Positions 1 to 20,500 of a stretch of DNA of 64,000 bases are shown here, piece after piece. Under the pieces are notes generated by a model, which saw nothing but the letters and a program-made list of their open reading frames with translations, was not told where the DNA came from and did no database searches. The DNA comes from Myxococcus hansupus (GTDB lineage Bacteria > Myxococcota > Myxococcia > Myxococcales > Myxococcaceae). Each line of letters starts with the position of its first letter. The stretch's first letter is position 1. Location of the stretch: the NCBI RefSeq assembly GCF_000280925.3, contig NZ_CP012109.1, positions 3,368,501-3,432,500 of the forward strand, in the 5' to 3' direction. The position numbers and the translations under genes are program-made.

Positions 1-363
1 ACCGGGCTGTCCACGCCGGCGAGCACCCGCCGCGCCGAGGCGGACACGCGCAAGGCGCAGCTCAACCTGGAGCAGGCCGCTCGGGAGATCGAGGGCGAGG
101 TCCGCGCCGCGCACCGCAGGCTGGAGGCCCAGCTCGAGGCCGCCCGTCTGGCCGCGCAGAACGTCGAGGCCGCCGCCTTGGGCCTCAACGTCCAGGACAC
201 GCGCTTCAAAGCTGGCGCGGGCTCCACCCTGGATGTTCGTGACGCGCAGCTCAGCCTCACGCGGGCCGAGCTGGCGCTGCTGGAAAACAGAATCGATGTC
301 GAAATCGCCCGCTATACGCTGTTGCGGGCCATGGGCGCCCTGAGCCCGGGAGAATCGAAATGA
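1..363 (+). CDS. TolC-family outer membrane efflux protein, C-terminal end only
   Basis: The frame is open from the first base of the window, so only the last 120 residues are present. They are almost entirely amphipathic helix, rich in Ala, Glu, Arg and Leu. The ending (TRFKAGAGSTLDVRDAQLSL followed by a run of ARAELALL type) is typical of the second half of a TolC/OMF protein: the conserved 'F..G..s.ldv.dAq..l' motif in the last helical hairpin of the periplasmic tunnel. Its TGA overlaps the ATG of the following membrane-fusion protein gene (ATGA, 360-363). This makes it the outer membrane channel of a tripartite pump encoded in one operon. The family call is firm; the substrate is unknown. 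Confidence 0.85.
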   Translation, partial: TGLSTPASTRRAEADTRKAQLNLEQAAREIEGEVRAAHRRLEAQLEAARLAAQNVEAAALGLNVQDTRFKAGAGSTLDVRDAQLSLTRAELALLENRIDVEIARYTLLRAMGALSPGESK

Positions 364-1615
364 AGTGGTGGAAGGGTGCCATTGCAGGCGCGTTGTTCCT
401 GGGAGCCGCTGCCATCACCGCGGGCGGGTTGAAGGACCGGCCGCCGCCGTCGCTCGAAGTCCAGCTTTCGAAGGCCCGCAAGGGCACCATCACCCGCACC
501 ATCACGGGCGCGGGCAAGGTGCAGGCGGCCACGACGGTGAAGATTTCGTCCAGCCTCTCCGGCGACCTGGTGGAGCTGTCCGTGAAGGACGGCGAGGCCG
601 TGTCGAAGGGGCAGGTGCTGGGCCGCATCGACCCGCGCCTCTATCAGGCCGCGCACAAGCAGGCGCTGGCGTCGCTCAACGCCTCGCGCGCCGACGTGCA
701 GGTCGCGGAGGTGGAGGTGGGCCGCGCGCAGTTGGAGTTCAAGCGCGTGGAGGAGCTCGCGACCAAGGGCCTGGCCTCCGCCGCCGAGGTGGACACGGTG
801 CGGGCGCAGAAGAGCACGGCGGATGCGCGGCTGACGGCCGCCAAGCAGATGCTGGCGCGGAACATGGCCATCGTGGACCAGGCGCAGACGGACCTGCAGC
901 GCACCACGCTGCTGTCGCCCATCGACGGCAACGTCATCGAGCTGTCGCGCGAGGTGGGTGAGCGCGTGCGTGGCTCGGACCTCTCCGAGGACGTGGTGAT
1001 GACCATCGCCGCGCTCAGCGCCATGGAGGTGAAGTTCGAGGTGGGTGAGCACGAGGTGGTCCACCTCAAGCCGGGCCAGCCCGCGGAAATCACGTTGGAC
1101 GCGCTGGAGGGCCAGACGTACTCGGGCTCGGTGGTGGAGATTGCGCAGAAGGCGCTCATCAAGAACGAGGGCACCGAGGCGGAGGTGACGAGCTTCCCCA
1201 TCACGGTGGCGCTGGACACCCGGCCGCCCAACGTGCTGCCCGGCATGAGCGCCGAGGCCCGCATCTCCGCGGAGACGCACAACGACGTGGTGCTGGTGCC
1301 CATCCAGGCGGTGACGGTGCGCTCGGAGCGCACGCTGCCGGACTACAAGGCCCCCATCGAGGGTGGCGGCCTGACGGCGAAGCGCACGGAGTCGCTGGCC
1401 AAGGTGGTGTTCGTGGTGGACGCCAACAACAAGGCGCAGGTCCGCCGGGTGCAGACGGGCATCGCGTCCGACACGGAGCTGGAGATCCTCACCGGAATCA
1501 ACGACGGGGACCGGGTGATTGAAGGTCCGTACCGGACGCTGTCGAAGGAGCTGAGCGACGGCGACATCGTGCGCGAGCCCGAGCAGGGCGCCGGAATGAA
1601 GGGCGGTCGCAAGTC

Positions 1616-1619
<4 letters not shown>
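360..1619 (+). CDS. MacA-like periplasmic adaptor (HlyD/RND-type membrane fusion protein)
   Basis: A 419-residue adaptor that bridges an inner membrane ABC transporter and the TolC-type channel. An N-terminal membrane anchor or signal (about residues 7-27) is followed by a first lipoyl half ([18 protein letters not shown], about 79-98). Next come a coiled-coil hairpin (about 100-180), the second lipoyl half ([19 protein letters not shown]) and beta-barrel/membrane-proximal domains. The loop near residues 320-350 is longer than in E. coli MacA. The start overlaps the upstream TolC stop, and the gene ends in a GTGA overlap with the ATPase gene. Gene order (OMF-MFP-ATPase-permease-permease) supports a MacAB-TolC-type exporter in the envelope. 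Substrate is not predictable; macrolides, peptides, lipids or signals are all possible in this family. Confidence 0.9.
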
Positions 1620-2367
<748 letters not shown>

Positions 2368-2371
<4 letters not shown>

Positions 2372-3606
2372 GCGGTCCGTCCGCCTTCCGAGTGGATGTC
2401 TTGGAGGGCGCACGCATCGCCGTCTTTTCGCTGAAGGCGAACCGCCTTCGCACCGTGCTGACCACGCTGGGCATTGGCATTGGCGTGGCCACGCTGCTGG
2501 CCATCGTGGGCATCATCCAGGGACTCAACACGTCCTTCCACCAGCAGCTCGCCACCTTCGGCGCCAACACGATGTACGTCTCCAAGTTCCCCTGGATGAT
2601 CAAGGGCGACTGGTGGCGCTACCGGAACCGGAAGAACTTCACCCTGGACCAGGTGCAGCGCCTGCGCACGCTGGCGCCGTTCGTGACGTCCATGTCGCCG
2701 TCGGTGCAGCGCCTGGCCGACGTGGCGCACGGCGGCGAGCAGATGTCCACCGTGCGCATCCAGGGCGTGACGCACGAGTACCTCAACATCTCCGGCTACG
2801 AAGTCACCGGCGGGCGCTTCCTCACCGAGGCGGACGACACGACGACGCGGCCGGTGGCGGTGCTGGGCGCGGACGTGGTGGACGGGCTGTTCCCCGGCGT
2901 CAATCCGGTGGGGCAGACCATCCGCATCGAGAACCGCACCTTCCAGGTGGTGGGGACGCTCAGCCGCAAGGGGAAGATGGTGGGCGAAAGCCTGGACCTC
3001 ATCGTCTTCATCCCGTTCAAGACGTTCTATTCGAGCTTCGGCAACCGGCGAGGCTTCGAGATCGCCATGGCGGTGGAGGACGCCTCCCAGGTGCGGGCCG
3101 CGGAGGACCAGCTCGTGGGCATCCTGCGCCGCGTGCGCTCCACGCCGCCGGGCGTGGACGACGACTTCTCCATCAACCGGCCGGAGGCCATGGCGCAGAC
3201 GTATGAGCAGCTCACGGGCGCGCTGTATGGCGTGGCCGTGGGCGTGGGGCTCATCACGCTGTTGGTGGGCGGCATCGGCATCATGAACATCATGCTGGTG
3301 TCGGTGCGCGAGCGGACGCGGGAGATTGGCGTGCGGCGGGCCCTGGGGGCCCGGAAGCGGACCATCGTCTTCCAGTTCCTGATGGAAGCCTCCAGCGTGT
3401 CCGCGGTGGGAGGCCTGCTGGGAACCACGGTGGGGTTGGGCACGGCGAAGGTGGTGTCGCTCGTCACGCCGCTGGCGGCGGACGTGCAGCCGATGACGGT
3501 GGTGGCGGGGGTGGGCTTCGCCGCGCTGGTGGGCCTGCTGTTCGGCATCTGGCCGGCGGCGCGCGCGGCGAACCTGGACCCCGTGGAAGCCCTTCGTTAC
3601 GAGTAA
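2368..3606 (+). CDS. MacB-type ABC transporter permease (first of two)
   Basis: A 412-aa FtsX/MacB-like permease. I chose the ATG at 2368 because it overlaps the ATPase stop codon (ATGA); an in-frame ATG lies about 105 bp upstream but falls inside the ATPase gene. Architecture: TM1 (about residues 22-45, motif [17 protein letters not shown]), a periplasmic MacB_PCD-like domain of about 230 residues, then three TM segments. TM2 carries the hallmark [31 protein letters not shown]. The C-terminus ends [15 protein letters not shown], the typical family ending. It is closely related to the next gene and probably forms a heterodimer with it on the ATPase dimer. Confidence 0.92.
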
Positions 3607-3610
3607 CCCG

Positions 3611-4843
3611 ATGCGCGCGTTCCTGGACAACCTGCGGCTGGCCCTGGGCACCTTCCTGGGCAACCCGCTGCGCTCGCTGTTGACGCTGCTGGGCATCGTC
3701 ATCGGCGTGGCGACGGTCATCACCATGATGGGGCTCATCGAGGGCCTTCGCATCAAGGTGAACAACGACATGGGGCGCATGGGCGCCCACACCTTCCAGG
3801 TGACGAAGTGGCCCGCGGGCGGCTTCGGCCGCATCAACTGGGCCAAGTACGCCAAGCGGCAGGACTTCGAGATGCCGGACTCCCGCGCCATCGAGGAGTC
3901 GTGCCCGTCCGTGGGCACGGTGGTGCCCACCGACGACGAGGGCGGCCAGAAGCTGTCGACGCCGAGCTCCGAGACGCGCCCGTCCGTTCGCGTCTTCGGC
4001 ACGCCCGCCAACTACCCGGTGGTCAGCGGCGTGTCGGTGCAGGCGGGGCGCTACTTCAACGAAGTGGAGGCGCTGGACGGCCGGCACGTGGTGCTGCTGG
4101 GCACGGATGTGTCGGACGCGCTGTTCCCCGGCATGAATCCGGTGGGCCACGAGGTGCGCATCAAGGGGCGGCCCTTCCGCGTCATCGGGTTGCTCCAGAA
4201 GCGGGGCAGCATGCTGGGCATGTTCAGCATGGACAACCAGGTGATGATTCCGCTGCGCGCCTTCCACCAGCTCTATGGCAAGGCGCGCTCCCTGGACATC
4301 AGCGTCCAGGCGAAGGACCCGGACCTGTTCAAGAAGGCGCAGGACGAGGTGTCCGCACTGATGCGTCGCCGCCGCGACGTGCCGGCGAACATGCCCAACG
4401 ACTTCGAGATTCACACCAACGAGTCCGTGACGGCGTCGTTCAACCAGCTCTCCAACGTCATCACCATCGCGGGCGTGGGCGTGTGCCTGCTGTCCCTGGT
4501 GGTGGGCGGCATTGGCATCCTCAACATCATGCTCGTCTCGGTGATGGAGCGGACGCGGGAGATTGGCGTGCGCAAGGCGCTGGGCGCGCGCAAGCGCCGC
4601 ATCCTGGGCCAGTTCGCCACCGAGGCCATCCTGCTGGCGCTGATGGGCGGCGCCATCGGCGTGGGCATGGGGTTTGGCCTGGTGTTCCTGGGGAACTGGA
4701 TGCTGGGATTCCCCATGCACGTGCCGCCCTGGGTGGTGGGCCTGGCCTTGTTCATGAGCTGCGGCGTGGGGCTGCTGTTCGGCATCTACCCGGCGGCCCA
4801 GGCGGCGAAGCTCGACCCGGTGGAGGCCATGCGGGCGGATTGA
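3611..4843 (+). CDS. MacB-type ABC transporter permease (second of two)
   Basis: A 410-aa paralogue of the preceding permease, starting 4 bp after it. It has the same topology: TM1 with RSLLTLLGIVIGVATVI, a large periplasmic domain, and a C-terminal three-helix bundle with [31 protein letters not shown]. It ends QAAKLDPVEAMRAD. Two different permeases served by one ATPase suggest a heterodimeric MacB-type pump, whereas classic MacB is a homodimer of fused ATPase-permease chains. The operon appears to end here: 47 bp separate it from the next gene, which belongs to a different pathway. Confidence 0.92.
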   Translation: MRAFLDNLRLALGTFLGNPLRSLLTLLGIVIGVATVITMMGLIEGLRIKVNNDMGRMGAHTFQVTKWPAGGFGRINWAKYAKRQDFEMPDSRAIEESCPSVGTVVPTDDEGGQKLSTPSSETRPSVRVFGTPANYPVVSGVSVQAGRYFNEVEALDGRHVVLLGTDVSDALFPGMNPVGHEVRIKGRPFRVIGLLQKRGSMLGMFSMDNQVMIPLRAFHQLYGKARSLDISVQAKDPDLFKKAQDEVSALMRRRRDVPANMPNDFEIHTNESVTASFNQLSNVITIAGVGVCLLSLVVGGIGILNIMLVSVMERTREIGVRKALGARKRRILGQFATEAILLALMGGAIGVGMGFGLVFLGNWMLGFPMHVPPWVVGLALFMSCGVGLLFGIYPAAQAAKLDPVEAMRAD

Positions 4844-6074: not shown

Positions 6075-7859
6075 ATGAAGCAGTCTGGCAAGAAGGTTCC
6101 AGGCATGTTGCGTGCCTGGTCTGGCGTGTTCGCCGCATCCCTGCTGGCAGGGTGTGGTGGCGCCGAGAGTGTCTCATCCGAGGAGCCGCCCGCCGCCGCG
6201 CAGGAGCAGGCGCAGGAAGTTCCCGGCGCGCCCATCGTCGACTCGATGGAAGCCATCGCGCTCGACAGCGTGCTGTCGGCGAAGACGCGCAGCCTCATCC
6301 GCGCGCGGCTCGCGGAAGGACAAGCGCAGATTCATCAGCAAATTCCCGTCGTATCGGACTCGGGTCAGCAGCTCGTCCTCAACGACCGCGGTGTCGACGG
6401 TGACGAGAAGGCCGGCGACGGCGTGTTCTCCGCCATTGGCGACGTCGACTTCGTGGCGCTGCAGGCCACGCAGTCGCGCATCCGTGAGTTCCAGGAGCGC
6501 AACCCCCAGACGCCGCTGACGTTCGCGACGTTCGACAACCGCGCGTTGGTGTCCGAGCGCGCGTTGACGCCGCTGTCCGCCGACATCTTCAAGCCCGGCG
6601 TTCCGATTCCCATCACCCCCGTGGGCATCTCGTTCGCGGTGAAGCCGGCGAACTCGCTCATCATCAACCATCCGTCCGTCATCAACGACCCGACGCGGAC
6701 GTATGACCCGTGCTCGAACGTCGGCAACCCGAACGGCGTGTGGACGTTCAACCACCTGATGCGGGAGATGGCGAACACGCACGTGTCGCCGCCCGTGCTG
6801 ACGGAGCACTGGCTGCGGCAGTGGACCGTCAACCAGAACATCAATGGCTGGACGGTGCCGGCGCGTCCGTCCATGAACTCGTTCATCCTGTCGCCGTGGC
6901 CCCGCGTGAGCGGCGCGCTGGACCTGACGCGGTCGCCGTTCAAGCTGGTGGCCATCGTCAACCGGTTGGACCTGGGCGGCAACCGAGGCCCGTCTGCGTA
7001 TGCGTCCGGCAACGCGGGCGAGCTGCGCTTCGTCTTCGCCGCGGTGGACCGCACGGCGACGACGTGTGCCGTCCGGCCCTTCCTGGTCATCTTCGAGTAC
7101 GGCGTGCCGCACGCGAGCTGTTCCGCCGTCCAGACGTGGGCCCGCCAGTGGCTGGACCTGTCCTCGCCCCTCATGGCGCTGGGCAGCCCGACCTACAACG
7201 CGGCCCTGGCCAACCTCACGCAGCAGGTGGTGACGCGCAACGCGGCGCCCCGCAAGCCGAACGGCAGCGCCATCAACCAGATTCGCACCAACGAGGAGTG
7301 GCTGCGCTACCCGTGGGAGCTGCGCGAGTTCCACCTGATGGGCTCGGGCATCTCCGCCAACCGCCTGCAGGGCCAGCCGACGGTGATGACGCCGGGCGAC
7401 TCGCACAACAACACGCCGGTGCTGCGTGACTTCGTCAACGCGAACACCTCCGCCATCCTCGCTGGCACCTACACCGTTCCGGCGACGTACCCCACCGCGG
7501 GCACGCCGTTCCTGGGCGCGTTCCCCTGGATTTCGACGGTGCCGAGCGCCTTCTGGCGCGCGACGGGCATCGCGAACAACGACGCCCGGCACCAGTTCTC
7601 GCTCAACACGTGCAACGGCTGCCACGCTCGCGAGACGAACACCGGCTTCATGCACATCAACCAGCACGGCGGGCTGTCGCCGTTCCTCGCCACGGGGATG
7701 GCGTCCCCGACCACGCCCTACTGGGTGCAGGACCCCGTCGTCAGCTCGGTGAACCGTCCGTTCTTCGAGATTCGGATGCGGGCCCAGAACCTGGACAGCG
7801 TGGCGAACCAGGCTTGCCTGTCGCGCGCGTTCGACCGGGCCATCACCGCCGCGCACTGA
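6075..7859 (+). CDS. Predicted lipoprotein with N-terminal choice-of-anchor-like domain and one CXXCH motif
   Basis: The start at ATG 6075 is chosen because it follows GAGGAG by 7 bases and opens a lipoprotein signal peptide (LLAGC, Cys27); an upstream in-frame ATG at 6033 would bury that signal. The mature protein is about 568 aa. Residues about 95-135 contain a DRGVDGDEKAGDGVFSA stretch, like the Ca-binding turn of choice-of-anchor X domains. The large central region is Trp/Asn/Pro-rich and matches no family I recognise. Near the C-terminus is CNGCH (C513, C516, H517), a canonical c-type haem attachment site, in a context (N-T-C-N-G-C-H-A-R-E-T-N) seen in secreted myxobacterial proteins. 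It may be an exported mono-haem protein, or the motif may be structural. The gene is monocistronic and faces a convergent pair. Confidence 0.6.
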   Translation: MKQSGKKVPGMLRAWSGVFAASLLAGCGGAESVSSEEPPAAAQEQAQEVPGAPIVDSMEAIALDSVLSAKTRSLIRARLAEGQAQIHQQIPVVSDSGQQLVLNDRGVDGDEKAGDGVFSAIGDVDFVALQATQSRIREFQERNPQTPLTFATFDNRALVSERALTPLSADIFKPGVPIPITPVGISFAVKPANSLIINHPSVINDPTRTYDPCSNVGNPNGVWTFNHLMREMANTHVSPPVLTEHWLRQWTVNQNINGWTVPARPSMNSFILSPWPRVSGALDLTRSPFKLVAIVNRLDLGGNRGPSAYASGNAGELRFVFAAVDRTATTCAVRPFLVIFEYGVPHASCSAVQTWARQWLDLSSPLMALGSPTYNAALANLTQQVVTRNAAPRKPNGSAINQIRTNEEWLRYPWELREFHLMGSGISANRLQGQPTVMTPGDSHNNTPVLRDFVNANTSAILAGTYTVPATYPTAGTPFLGAFPWISTVPSAFWRATGIANNDARHQFSLNTCNGCHARETNTGFMHINQHGGLSPFLATGMASPTTPYWVQDPVVSSVNRPFFEIRMRAQNLDSVANQACLSRAFDRAITAAH

Positions 7860-14268: not shown

Positions 14269-15102
14269 TCAGATGCGCTCGCGGGTGAGGACCTCGGAGC
14301 GCTCCTGGTCGTTCCAGGTGACCTTCCGGGTCTCCCGGCCGTTGAAGTAGATGGCCTCCCGGTCGCTGATGAGTTTGCGGATGGTGATGCGCGCCACGGA
14401 CTGGCGGTCATCCACGCCGTGGGTCAGCTCGTAGCGGGCGACATCGCTGGGGACTTCGCCCAGGCGGAGCCGAATCTCCCCGAGCGCGTCCACGTAGTCC
14501 CCCAGGGACTCCAACTGCGCCAGCGCGCGTCCCATCACCTTGCCGGTGTGGCGGCTCAGGACGCGGTCCCAGAAGAGGTAGCCCGCGCCCAGCGTCGCCG
14601 CGCTGGTGAAGAACATGAAGAAGTTGAGCGCCGGGTCCAGCACCCGGTTGCGAGTGAGGCCCGGCGGGGTCGACGCGTCGACCAGGATCTCCTTCATGGC
14701 CTCCACGGCCGAGCGGTGGGCCAGGTGCGTCCACTCCCGCGCGTCCCGCTCCGCGCCGAACGCCCACCAGCAGAGTCCCAGGTGCAGCGCGAGGAGCGAC
14801 TGGCGTGCCTTGTCGTGCTCCAGCGCCAGGGCCTCCTTGATGGACTCCCGCGCGGCCCTCAGACGTTCCAGCCGCACGTCGCGTGGGACGCCGTCCGCGC
14901 GCACCGCTTCCAGGTGCTGCCGGGCGGTATGGAAGGGGCCTCGATGAAAGGGGCGCACGTCCCGGCGAAGGCCGTGCAGCAGGTCGAGCTGCGTCTCCTG
15001 GACGCCGAGCATCGCCTCCACCAGCGACACTGGAACGGGCGCTTCCAGCCTGCCTCCCGCCCGCGGAAGAACCGCCAGGACGAGCTCATCCCACTTGGCC
15101 AT
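14269..15102 (-). CDS. Unknown protein with one internal membrane segment
   Basis: A 277-aa protein. ATG 15102 chosen (MAKWDEL); upstream extension is compositionally unlike coding sequence. The first 160 residues are helical and charged, with repeated Leu/Arg/His patterns. One hydrophobic segment (LNFFMFFTSAATLGAGYLFWDRVL, about 152-175) is followed by helical and beta-rich cytoplasmic sequence. No motif I can assign. It is flanked by about 140 bp on one side and the 14-kb gap on the other, so probably monocistronic. Confidence 0.55.
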   Translation of the reverse strand: MAKWDELVLAVLPRAGGRLEAPVPVSLVEAMLGVQETQLDLLHGLRRDVRPFHRGPFHTARQHLEAVRADGVPRDVRLERLRAARESIKEALALEHDKARQSLLALHLGLCWWAFGAERDAREWTHLAHRSAVEAMKEILVDASTPPGLTRNRVLDPALNFFMFFTSAATLGAGYLFWDRVLSRHTGKVMGRALAQLESLGDYVDALGEIRLRLGEVPSDVARYELTHGVDDRQSVARITIRKLISDREAIYFNGRETRKVTWNDQERSEVLTRERI

Positions 15103-16061: not shown

Positions 16062-16145
16062 CGGGCTCCTGGGGGTTGAGGGAATCGGCGAGTGTACCTC
16101 GACTGGCGTGTGGCGAAGGGCACCCGGCGCGTCTACGTTGAGGCG

Positions 16146-17795
16146 ATGACGCATGCGGCGCCCGAAGCGTGGACACTGCCCTGGCGGGGCCTGGGCCTGA
16201 GCAGCAACCTGAGCGTGGCGGACGTGCCGCAGCCCTACCGGATGTTGGACGAATCACCCGGCCTCTTCGACTACGTGGAGTACAGCGCGCCGCTGTCGCT
16301 GGAGGCGTCGAAGGCGCACGCGTCGCTGTTCCCGGAGATGTGGCGCCGTCGGCACGAGGTGCCCGTGTTGTTCCACCCCGTCCACCTCAACCTCTGGGGC
16401 CCCGCACTGGAGCCCGCACAGGCCTTGATGGACCTGGAGGCCCACGCGCGCGCCGTGGAGAGCCCGTGGGTGGGCAACGACGTGGGGTGGTGGCATGTCG
16501 AGGGCCAGCCCTTTCCCGGCTACCTCTACTTCACGCCGCCGTTCAACGAGGCAGGGCTGGAGGAATGCGTCACGCACGCGCTCCACGTGCAGCGGCACCT
16601 GTCCAGGCCGCTCGCGCTGGAGAACCCCGCGGTGCTGGCGCGGCGCGGGCACTGGCACGTGCTCGACTTCATGGCGAAGCTTCACGCGCGCACCGGCCTG
16701 CCGCTGCTCCTGGACCTGGGGCACCTGTTCAGCCATCAGTTGTCCGCGGGCCTGCCGCTGGAGTCGGGGCTGGATGGCTTCCCGCTCGACCAGGTCATCG
16801 AACTGCACATCGCGGGCGGCGTCGTCACGCACCGGGGCGCGCGCAGCTTCTACGTGGATGACCACACGCAGCCCGTGCGCGAGGAGCTGTTCACGCTGCT
16901 GGCGTCACTGATTCCCCGCTGCCCGTCCCTGCGCGCCGTCACCTTCGAAGGGGATGGCCATCCGCCCGAGGTCGCGCTGGCGTCGTTACGCCGGCTGCGC
17001 AAGCTGGTCCCTGCGGGGGCGCGTCCGCCGCTCACGCTTCGCGTGCCGGAGGCCGTCGACGTGCCACCGCTGACGGAGGGCAGCCAGCCCTGGGCGTTGT
17101 TCGACGCCGGTTATGCCGCGGCGCCCGCCAGCTCCGTGGAGGACGAGGCGGGGACCGTGGCCGACCAGGATTTCCGCCTGGCCGTGGTCGCCGAGGTCCT
17201 GGACCGGGAGTGGCCGCTCACACGCCTGTTGCTCGCCGGGACGCGGGAGTCGCTGGCGGCCTTCACGGGCTCGAAGGAGTTCCGGAAGACTTTCGCGGCA
17301 GGCGGGCGTTCGCCGGGGCAGGCCTTCGCCTCCTGGGCCATGCGCCGCCTTCGAGAGCAGAAGGAGGAGGGGGCCTCCGCGGTGCTGACGCTGGAGATGC
17401 TCCTGCCCTCCCTGTTCATGCGGCGGGTGCCCGCGCCGGGGCCTGGGCAGGTGGGGCTGGCCGAGGACGTGCGGCTGGGGTCACTCCCGGTGGACCTGTC
17501 CGAGCTCGTCTATGCCGCTCGCGCCGTGCGCCGCCACCTCACGGCCCGCGCGTGGGCGAGCGGCGCCTTGGAGCTGTCGGGCCTGGAGACGTTGCTCCAG
17601 GTGTCGCGGCGTCCAGAGCCGGGGCCGTGGACCTTCATCGCCCGGCGCAGGTCCGGAGGGACGGAGCTGACGAGCGCGTCTGGAGGATTGGTGGGATTCC
17701 TTGGAAAACTGGCGGCGCAGGCCGTGACAGAGGCGGAGGTGGACCCCTTGCTCGTGGCCGAGGCGCGCGAGCGAGGGCTGATCCGCCGAGGTTAG
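16146..17795 (+). CDS. DUF692/MNIO-type multinuclear iron oxidase-like protein with a C-terminal extension
   Basis: A 549-aa protein, start ATG 16146. Residues 1-280 form a DUF692 TIM barrel: LGLSSNL at the start, H77/H80 in LFHPVHLN, N111-D112 with W115-H117, E159-N160, D190-x-x-H193, H197, E219-L-H221-I-A, D239-H240, E268-x-D-x-H272. These match the metal-ligand pattern of MbnB, TglH and bufferin MNIOs, which use two or three irons to modify Cys or Asn residues of a peptide. Residues 290-549 are an extra alpha-rich domain of unknown family, with an ending (TFIARRRSGGTELTSA) faintly like the DUF2063 partner proteins. I see no obvious substrate peptide next to it. Function is otherwise unknown. 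Confidence 0.8.
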   Translation: MTHAAPEAWTLPWRGLGLSSNLSVADVPQPYRMLDESPGLFDYVEYSAPLSLEASKAHASLFPEMWRRRHEVPVLFHPVHLNLWGPALEPAQALMDLEAHARAVESPWVGNDVGWWHVEGQPFPGYLYFTPPFNEAGLEECVTHALHVQRHLSRPLALENPAVLARRGHWHVLDFMAKLHARTGLPLLLDLGHLFSHQLSAGLPLESGLDGFPLDQVIELHIAGGVVTHRGARSFYVDDHTQPVREELFTLLASLIPRCPSLRAVTFEGDGHPPEVALASLRRLRKLVPAGARPPLTLRVPEAVDVPPLTEGSQPWALFDAGYAAAPASSVEDEAGTVADQDFRLAVVAEVLDREWPLTRLLLAGTRESLAAFTGSKEFRKTFAAGGRSPGQAFASWAMRRLREQKEEGASAVLTLEMLLPSLFMRRVPAPGPGQVGLAEDVRLGSLPVDLSELVYAARAVRRHLTARAWASGALELSGLETLLQVSRRPEPGPWTFIARRRSGGTELTSASGGLVGFLGKLAAQAVTEAEVDPLLVAEARERGLIRRG

Positions 17796-19568: not shown

Positions 19569-20500
19569 CAGGAGACTGCCGCTTGAAGCGCTACTTCGGA
19601 GTCATCGTCATCATCGCGGGTGTGCTGCTGGCCGCCGTCATGAGCTACCGCAGCGCCAGTGGTCGCGCGCTGGAAGCGCAGCGGAACGCGGATCAGCAAC
19701 GCATCCATGCGGAGTACCTCGAGCGCGTCGGCTGGATGCGCGCCAACCCGGACGAAGCCAGCTACCGCGACGAGCTGAAGCCTTTCTTCAAGAACTACTT
19801 CGAGCAGGTGGACGCGCACCTGACCCGTTTCCGCGGGAACACGAAGTTCGACGACTACCTGCTGGAGATGGAGAAGCGCGCGGAGAGCGGCGCGAAGGAT
19901 GACCGCGCCAACGACCGCAAGGCCTTCTACGAGTACACGCGCAAGACGTTCGACAGCATGCGCGAGGGCCGCTACCGCCCGGTGTGGACCGCCACCGAGA
20001 AGGGCATGCGCCTGGACATCATCTCCTCGGACGTGGTGATGGTGCTGGGCAAGCCGCAGATTCGCCTGCAGATGGCGGTGTGGGGCGCGCAGCGTGTCCT
20101 CAAGGAGGAGGGCAAGGTGCTGAAGATGCTGACCAGCGCCTCCTTCGACACGGTGTGGAAGCTCACGGACGCGAAGGGGAAGCTGCTCGGCGAGATGCGC
20201 GGTGCGGACCCGTCCATGAAGATTGACCACCCGGAGCGCTTCGTCCGCGAGTTCCCCCCGCAGATGCTGCTGGGGCACTACGACCTGGACCTGCTGCCGA
20301 ACGAGGTGGCGAAGATGGAGATGACCATCAACCTCTCCTCGAGCGCGGCCTCTGGCGGCACGGCGGCGGCCACCTACGTGTGGAAGGTGGACCCCATCCC
20401 GTCCGACTGGAAGCTCGGCGCTGGTGAGTCCTGGGAGGGTGCCACCCAGGAAGAGCGCCCCGAGGAGGAGATTGACCCGTCGAAGGCCGCGCGGAACTAG
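19569..20500 (+). CDS. Membrane-anchored protein of unknown function (TTG start at 19583)
   Basis: The coding sequence starts at TTG 19583, which is placed 8 bases after an AGGAGA ribosome binding site (19570-19575, included in the interval); the in-frame ATG at 19508 would read back through the site and into the neighbouring promoter. Product 305 aa: one N-terminal membrane helix (about residues 5-24), then a mostly helical charged domain with FEQVDAHLTRF and beta-rich sequence, ending in a short acidic tail. The topology predicts a periplasmic (or cytoplasmic) domain anchored by one helix. No family recognised. Convergent with the propeller gene 15 bp away. Confidence 0.6.

Follow-up and report, generated by a model that had tools for sequence, protein, structure and literature searches.

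One gene in the analyzed stretch of Myxococcus hansupus DNA (64 000 nucleotides, called the window below) probably encodes a one-chain MNIO holoenzyme whose substrate is recruited in trans. Established work has shown that MNIOs act with a partner protein that binds the substrate leader. In the protein described here, the N-terminal barrel would be the oxygenase, presumably dependent on iron and O2, and the C-terminal half, with a predicted TglI/DUF2063-type partner fold, would bind the substrate leader and complete the enzyme. A 46-residue linker would hold barrel and partner domain at 1:1. The substrate, either a peptide or a protein domain, is presumably encoded elsewhere in the genome and would be recruited by the RRE-like domain.

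Gene structure and conservation

The ORF at 16146-17795 on the plus strand is translated without a stop codon into 549 aa. Its start ATG at 16146 is common to close orthologues, and the open frame itself opens upstream at a GTG at 16092. Residues 41-277 match the Pfam family MbnB_TglH_ChrH (PF05114) with an E-value of 1.2e-28 and 100.6 bits against a cut-off of 25, while the ~260 aa outside this family gave no Pfam match even at E 5. Identity with the BufB equivalog (NF050167; 87.3 bits versus a cut-off of 310) or the ApyH equivalog (NF050151; 84.9 bits versus 400) was rejected, BufB still being the best NCBIfam match. The coordinates of the features are given in Table 1.

Barrel and extension occur together at full length in 26 named genomes, from Myxococcus, Pyxidicoccus, Corallococcus, Citreicoccus, Archangium-like bacteria and Hyalangium. 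Using a profile search, we found the fusion in 76 of the 145 genomes of the order, one copy in each, including every genome of genera g1, g3, g5, g6, g7 and g8. All domains are under purifying selection; for 12 orthologue pairs dN/dS was below 0.42 in all segments (barrel 0.07-0.23, helical part 0.08-0.26, RRE-like part 0.14-0.41). The barrel is the most constrained segment, with 84 of 279 columns invariant, and the linker is the least. Since the extension is kept across the named genomes and this part of the order with low dN/dS, it is not a chance read-through. The ORF is an intact gene for an MNIO (DUF692) barrel with a conserved 260-residue extension; the PF05114 match and the retention of the extension in orthologues bear out the original prediction on this point. 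The host genome (9.49 Mb) has two further MNIOs, of which the first is accompanied by a DUF2063 partner gene and the second adjoins a TIGR04222 protein; the fusion is a separate third.

A record labelled Comamonas sp. KCTC 72670 (L004, BNCN01000004.1) shows 93% protein identity and full synteny with the Myxococcus window; the organism name on this record is probably wrong. Two other window genes, of 584 aa (6105-7859) and 277 aa (14269-15102), are kept in this close relative, and neither matched a Pfam family above cut-off.

Table 1. Features of the fusion gene and its surroundings, in window positions
Feature	Position	Strand	Basis or remark
CDS, 549-aa MNIO-partner fusion (partner half by predicted fold)	16146..17795	+	Translation, Pfam, orthologues
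MNIO TIM barrel, residues 12-290	16179..17015	+	PF05114; best PDB matches of the barrel model, parts of which are of low confidence, TglH (Z 16.0) and MbnB (Z ~14)
Linker, residues 291-336, poorly conserved	17016..17153	+	Invariant columns 0/46
Helical domain, residues ~337-435	17154..17450	+	Model resembles N-terminal domain of TglI/NGO1945/MbnC
RRE-like alpha/beta domain, residues ~436-549	17451..17792	+	Predicted fold
Codon for Asp112, which aligns with TglH His107 (ligand of iron site 1)	16479..16481	+	Alignments; ligand list of PMC10880893
Codon for His193, which aligns with TglH Asn187 (ligand of iron site 3)	16722..16724	+	Alignments
HlyD membrane-fusion protein, ABC ATPase, two MacB permeases	360..4843	+	In several other genera, homologues immediately precede the MNIO gene
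305-aa membrane-anchored protein, no family	19583..20500	+	Directly 3' of the MNIO gene in L063-L065

Fold of the C-terminal half

A fold search with the whole protein gave mostly barrels, and for this reason the C-terminal half was modelled apart. Residues 318-549 were folded alone from an alignment of 27 orthologues, yielding a model with a pLDDT of 86. When this model was compared with the PDB using Foldseek, the matches were TglI (8hi7_A, E = 4.1e-5; 8hci_A, 1.4e-4; chain A was assigned to TglI by length and because the other chain is TglH), NGO1945 (9.0e-4) and MbnC (0.13). Beyond these four targets only unrelated proteins were found, with E-values of 0.47 or higher. By VIA-align, TglI matched model positions 1-232 with Z 11.2 (rmsd 6.8, 197 residues aligned), followed by NGO1945 (DUF2063+RRE; Z 9.0, 166 aligned), MbnC (Z 6.1, 81 aligned) and the MccB RRE (Z 5.5, 61 aligned), the rest having Z values of 5.4 or below. 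Because such Z values are reachable by chance among helical folds, our argument is based on which proteins rank first, and all three known MNIO partner types head the PDB fold list. The predicted model has a helical domain followed by an RRE-like domain, as in the TglI/NGO1945 fold, and the elements of the RRE-like domain are ordered bb-aa-bb-aa-b. The model thus strongly supports the C-terminal half being a fused MNIO partner domain.

The original prediction had been staked on the extension sharing a fold with MNIO partners, and the model of residues 318-549 is similar to TglI, NGO1945 and MbnC. Its remark that the extension is faintly like DUF2063 holds for the fold (NGO1945) but not for the sequence. 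The signature of DUF2063 (PF09836), that of PME-type 1, is absent from the extension in Pfam at E 5, HMMER with the C-terminal profile found no partner proteins, and hhalign gave a probability of 3%. We consequently rejected a link by sequence between the extension and either DUF2063 or unfused partners, the fold being the only connection.

It is extremely improbable that the C-terminal half is a DNA-binding regulator domain and the protein a ligand-responsive regulator. The PDB entry for NGO1945 (3dee) describes a putative regulatory protein and Pfam names DUF2063 a ‘putative DNA-binding domain’, but NGO1945 has since been reinterpreted as an MNIO partner (PMC12452194). The proven MNIO partners TglI and MbnC are also matched, TglI better than NGO1945, and the catalytic barrel is the best-conserved part of the protein. 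Three points do weigh against a one-chain holoenzyme: the identity of the partner comes from predicted fold, sequence homology to partners being undetected; several deep-branching orthologues lack the final 40-50 residues of the RRE-like domain, its last helices; and the barrel of the full-length model (pLDDT 33-55 across residues 21-130) is too poor to judge docking of the TglHI type.

Ligand substitutions and the D/H branch

TglH is the solved protein closest to the barrel by sequence and also by profile. The iron ligands of TglH are H71, H107, E151, D184, N187, H216, D229, H231 and E258 (PMC10880893). Alignment to TglH and multiple alignments of MNIOs placed these at H77, D112, E159, D190, H193, H221, D238, H240 and E268 of the fusion. 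Seven of the nine (H77, E159, D190, H221, D238, H240 and E268) are identical to those of TglH. The claim that the barrel keeps the metal-ligand pattern therefore stands for these positions but fails at two, where His107 and Asn187 in TglH numbering are replaced by Asp and His in all orthologues. D112 and H193, like all nine ligand positions, are invariant in 37 orthologues. As the canonical ligand set is not present, we filed the protein as a variant MNIO.

The substitutions define a branch, here called the D/H branch. All 17 branch members have H-D-E-D-H-H-D-H-E, whereas all 15 canonical MNIOs have H-H-E-D-N-H-D-H-E, one row among the latter being gapped at the last ligand position. The split between branch and canonical MNIOs had a support of 100/100 with the swapped columns and their neighbours removed and 100/99 with them included. 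The branch takes in proteins from a Streptomyces plasmid (L116) and a Piscinibacter plasmid (L117). We did not find a description of this branch in the openly accessible literature, which leaves an earlier description possible.

Could the barrel be another xylose-isomerase-like TIM-barrel enzyme, without MNIO chemistry? Two ligand positions do differ from TglH and isomerase-like barrels match the model too, but we consider this very unlikely. In a fold comparison using the full-length model, with its poor barrel, MNIO structures matched better (Z 12-16) than isomerase-like barrels (Z 10.7 and lower). The substituted positions keep side chains that bind metal, all nine positions are invariant, and the partner-like domain is retained.

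In the branch cofactor, the His pair of site 1 would become His plus Asp, and the Asn of site 3 would become His. MbnB binds the substrate Cys thiolate at site 1, a site with two His (PMC13419390). Since one site-1 His is replaced by Asp here, we infer that a C-H bond of a non-Cys residue is more likely to be oxidized, in a hydroxylation-type reaction, than cysteine. The MNIO of the std cluster hydroxylates homocitrulline (PMC13174530), and the surroundings of the Piscinibacter protein look like such a cluster and include a carbamoyltransferase gene as well as an SNK-containing precursor. By analogy, this neighbourhood hints at non-Cys chemistry.

At this locus, on a Piscinibacter gummiphilus plasmid (L117:1987-6837), the end of the D/H MNIO overlaps an open frame leading into the carbamoyltransferase gene, and an adjacent precursor-like ORF of 57 aa ends in SNKARQKPW. 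The Streptomyces europaeiscabiei plasmid (L116:2771-4575) encodes a fused MNIO of 533 aa with D/H ligands, a branch MNIO with ~240 further residues. It is preceded by a 51-aa ORF and surrounded by YcaO, MBL-fold, acyl-protein synthase and acyl-CoA reductase genes. A further relative (L093:5088-6606:+) has the D and H swaps and is without two ligands (H221 to N, H240 to Y); behind this MNIO-like gene is a long ORF that contains AAVRCAPAVDPSMYHP repeats and whose leader faintly resembles the Os1348 NHLP clan.

In other Myxococcota families, the branch MNIO is a separate protein of 291-324 residues, followed by a gene for a 216-303-aa protein, the probable partner. L106 and L108-L111 show a 4-bp overlap of the two genes, and L107 has a 20-bp gap between them. 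By hhalign and HMMER, the similarity of the downstream proteins to the fused half was not significant. Fusion of such an adjacent MNIO and partner gene pair is the simplest origin of the gene.

Fusions have arisen elsewhere as well: in two single ORFs (L077:4759-6486:- and L078:4588-6270:-) a canonical MNIO continues into a true DUF2063 partner, with Pfam E-values of 4e-108 and 9e-20 in L077. We also observed a RiPP-like cluster in Myxococcaceae genera g5 and g6 (L083, L084, L088, L089, L091 and L092), in which a 30-36-aa ORF (MYIQSEIVRVSAAxDKCTC..GM / MYTNAQIVRVSAASDKCTCGGGM) is present one to three times. Downstream of the small ORFs lie genes for MFS, CBM9/DUF5916 and methyltransferase proteins, a canonical MNIO and a probable partner of 190-200 aa.

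Candidate substrates and comparison with known systems

The gaps flanking the fusion gene (84 bp upstream, 68 bp downstream) contain no precursor-like gene, in agreement with the earlier statement that no substrate peptide is adjacent. Likewise, no small precursor genes were found in the tight operons of six related loci. In six genera the fusion gene is the last, or nearly the last, of a MacB-type exporter operon. In g2, g11, g12, g21 and g22, where the operon has the order Yip1 - OEP - HlyD - ABC ATPase - MacB - MacB, it comes after the second MacB permease, either overlapping it by 4 bp or starting within ~30 bp of its end. The distance to the HlyD gene is ~4 kb in four g8 genomes. The exporter of the window spans 1-4843, ~11 kb from the fusion gene, its preceding OEP gene ending at 363. 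Neither the MacB-type exporter nor the 305-aa membrane protein has an obligate link to the fusion, both being present in many genomes that lack it; the adjacency in six genera is real.

These arrangements bear on the possibility, which we take seriously while judging it the less probable outcome, that the gene encodes a core-genome protein-modifying enzyme whose target is an envelope or exported cellular protein, not a RiPP, with an ancestral place at the end of the exporter operon. The fusion is single-copy and universal in well-sampled genera, as a housekeeping gene would be, and a precursor was found in none of the loci. Its position directly 3' of two MacB permeases in five genera, and near the membrane-fusion gene in the g8 genomes, fits this reading, as does the L106 locus, where two large Cys-rich secreted proteins are encoded on the same strand downstream of an MNIO/partner pair. 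However, the exporter and the 305-aa protein occur in many fusion-free genomes, so that the link is not obligate, and RRE-like domains normally read leader peptides. At L106 (7190-15076:+) the pair belongs to the D/H branch and the secreted proteins have C-terminal sorting-like tails. A link to MYXO-CTERM, prompted by this locus, was not upheld: the tag is found in 142 of the 145 genomes of the order regardless of the fusion, and its distribution gives no support.

We think it rather unlikely that the protein is a fused BufBC/HvfBC-like enzyme that still oxidizes Cys in a secreted copper-handling peptide encoded elsewhere, the swaps merely tuning the cofactor. BufB is the best NCBIfam match (87 bits), but this score is well under the 310-bit cut-off. 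A bufferin-type locus of the same genome includes a small ORF with Cys (L082), but that locus is already equipped with a canonical MNIO and a DUF2063 gene of its own. The fusion gene of three genus-g4 genomes adjoins a 134-aa DoxX-like gene (a Pfam match just below cut-off in two, none in the third), a type known in bufferin clusters (PMC12452194). Against this reading, one His of site 1, the site at which the Cys thiolate sits in MbnB (PMC13419390), has been lost.

Returning to the one-chain holoenzyme, we offer a broader and rather doubtful proposal: in at least three phyla, a His/Asp site 1 and a His site 3 may give a different cofactor and C-H chemistry, and the myxobacterial form may be a single-chain core-genome oxygenase of a cellular protein. 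MNIOs introduce unusual modifications into peptides, and a naturally occurring clade in which two ligands are swapped offers a ready comparison for asking how many of their irons are catalytic and what determines Cys versus C-H chemistry. A one-chain enzyme avoids the problem of partner assembly that hampers in vitro work. The modification of ordinary proteins by MNIOs has been raised as a possibility (PMC12452194), and a single-copy core MNIO without a precursor would be a direct test of it.

Among known systems, TglHI (3-thiaglutamate, Pseudomonas syringae; 8hci/8hi7) is one of the closest. The barrel is nearest TglH by sequence and fold, and the entire extension is, by predicted fold, nearest TglI (Z 11.2, 197 aligned). 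The differences are that TglHI consists of two separate chains, that His107 and Asn187 of TglH correspond to Asp112 and His193 here, and that the fusion has no nearby precursor gene. By model, the extension has the same two-part fold as partners of PME-type 1 (DUF2063+RRE; BufC/HvfC/NGO1945) and PME-type 2, and like PME-type 2 it is without the DUF2063 sequence signature (PMC12452194). Unlike those partners, it is joined to the enzyme, and sequence similarity to them is undetectable.

MovX (Vibrio methanobactin-like) and ChrH also combine an MNIO and a helper domain in one chain. The ChrH helper exists as a protein of its own in cyanobacteria, so that the split/fused pattern is shared (PMC12636315). 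However, MovX has an RRE/wHTH domain only and the helper of ChrH is a helical bundle of ~7.8 kDa, whereas the fusion has a predicted full partner of two domains and ~210 residues. HvfB and HvfC have been fused by engineering into an active protein that is more productive than co-expression of the two (PMC13419390). In this protein, as in L077 and L078, the enzyme C-terminus is joined to the partner N-terminus as in the fusion, but the engineered protein is artificial and the two natural ORFs have canonical ligands and a true DUF2063 domain. StdDE, a homocitrulline bis-hydroxylase (PMC13174530), resembles the branch through the std-like neighbourhood of L117 but has a separate partner. MNIOs with fused helpers are thus already known (MovX, ChrH; PMC12452194, PMC12636315, PMC13419390), and the architecture of the Myxococcus protein is a variant of these.
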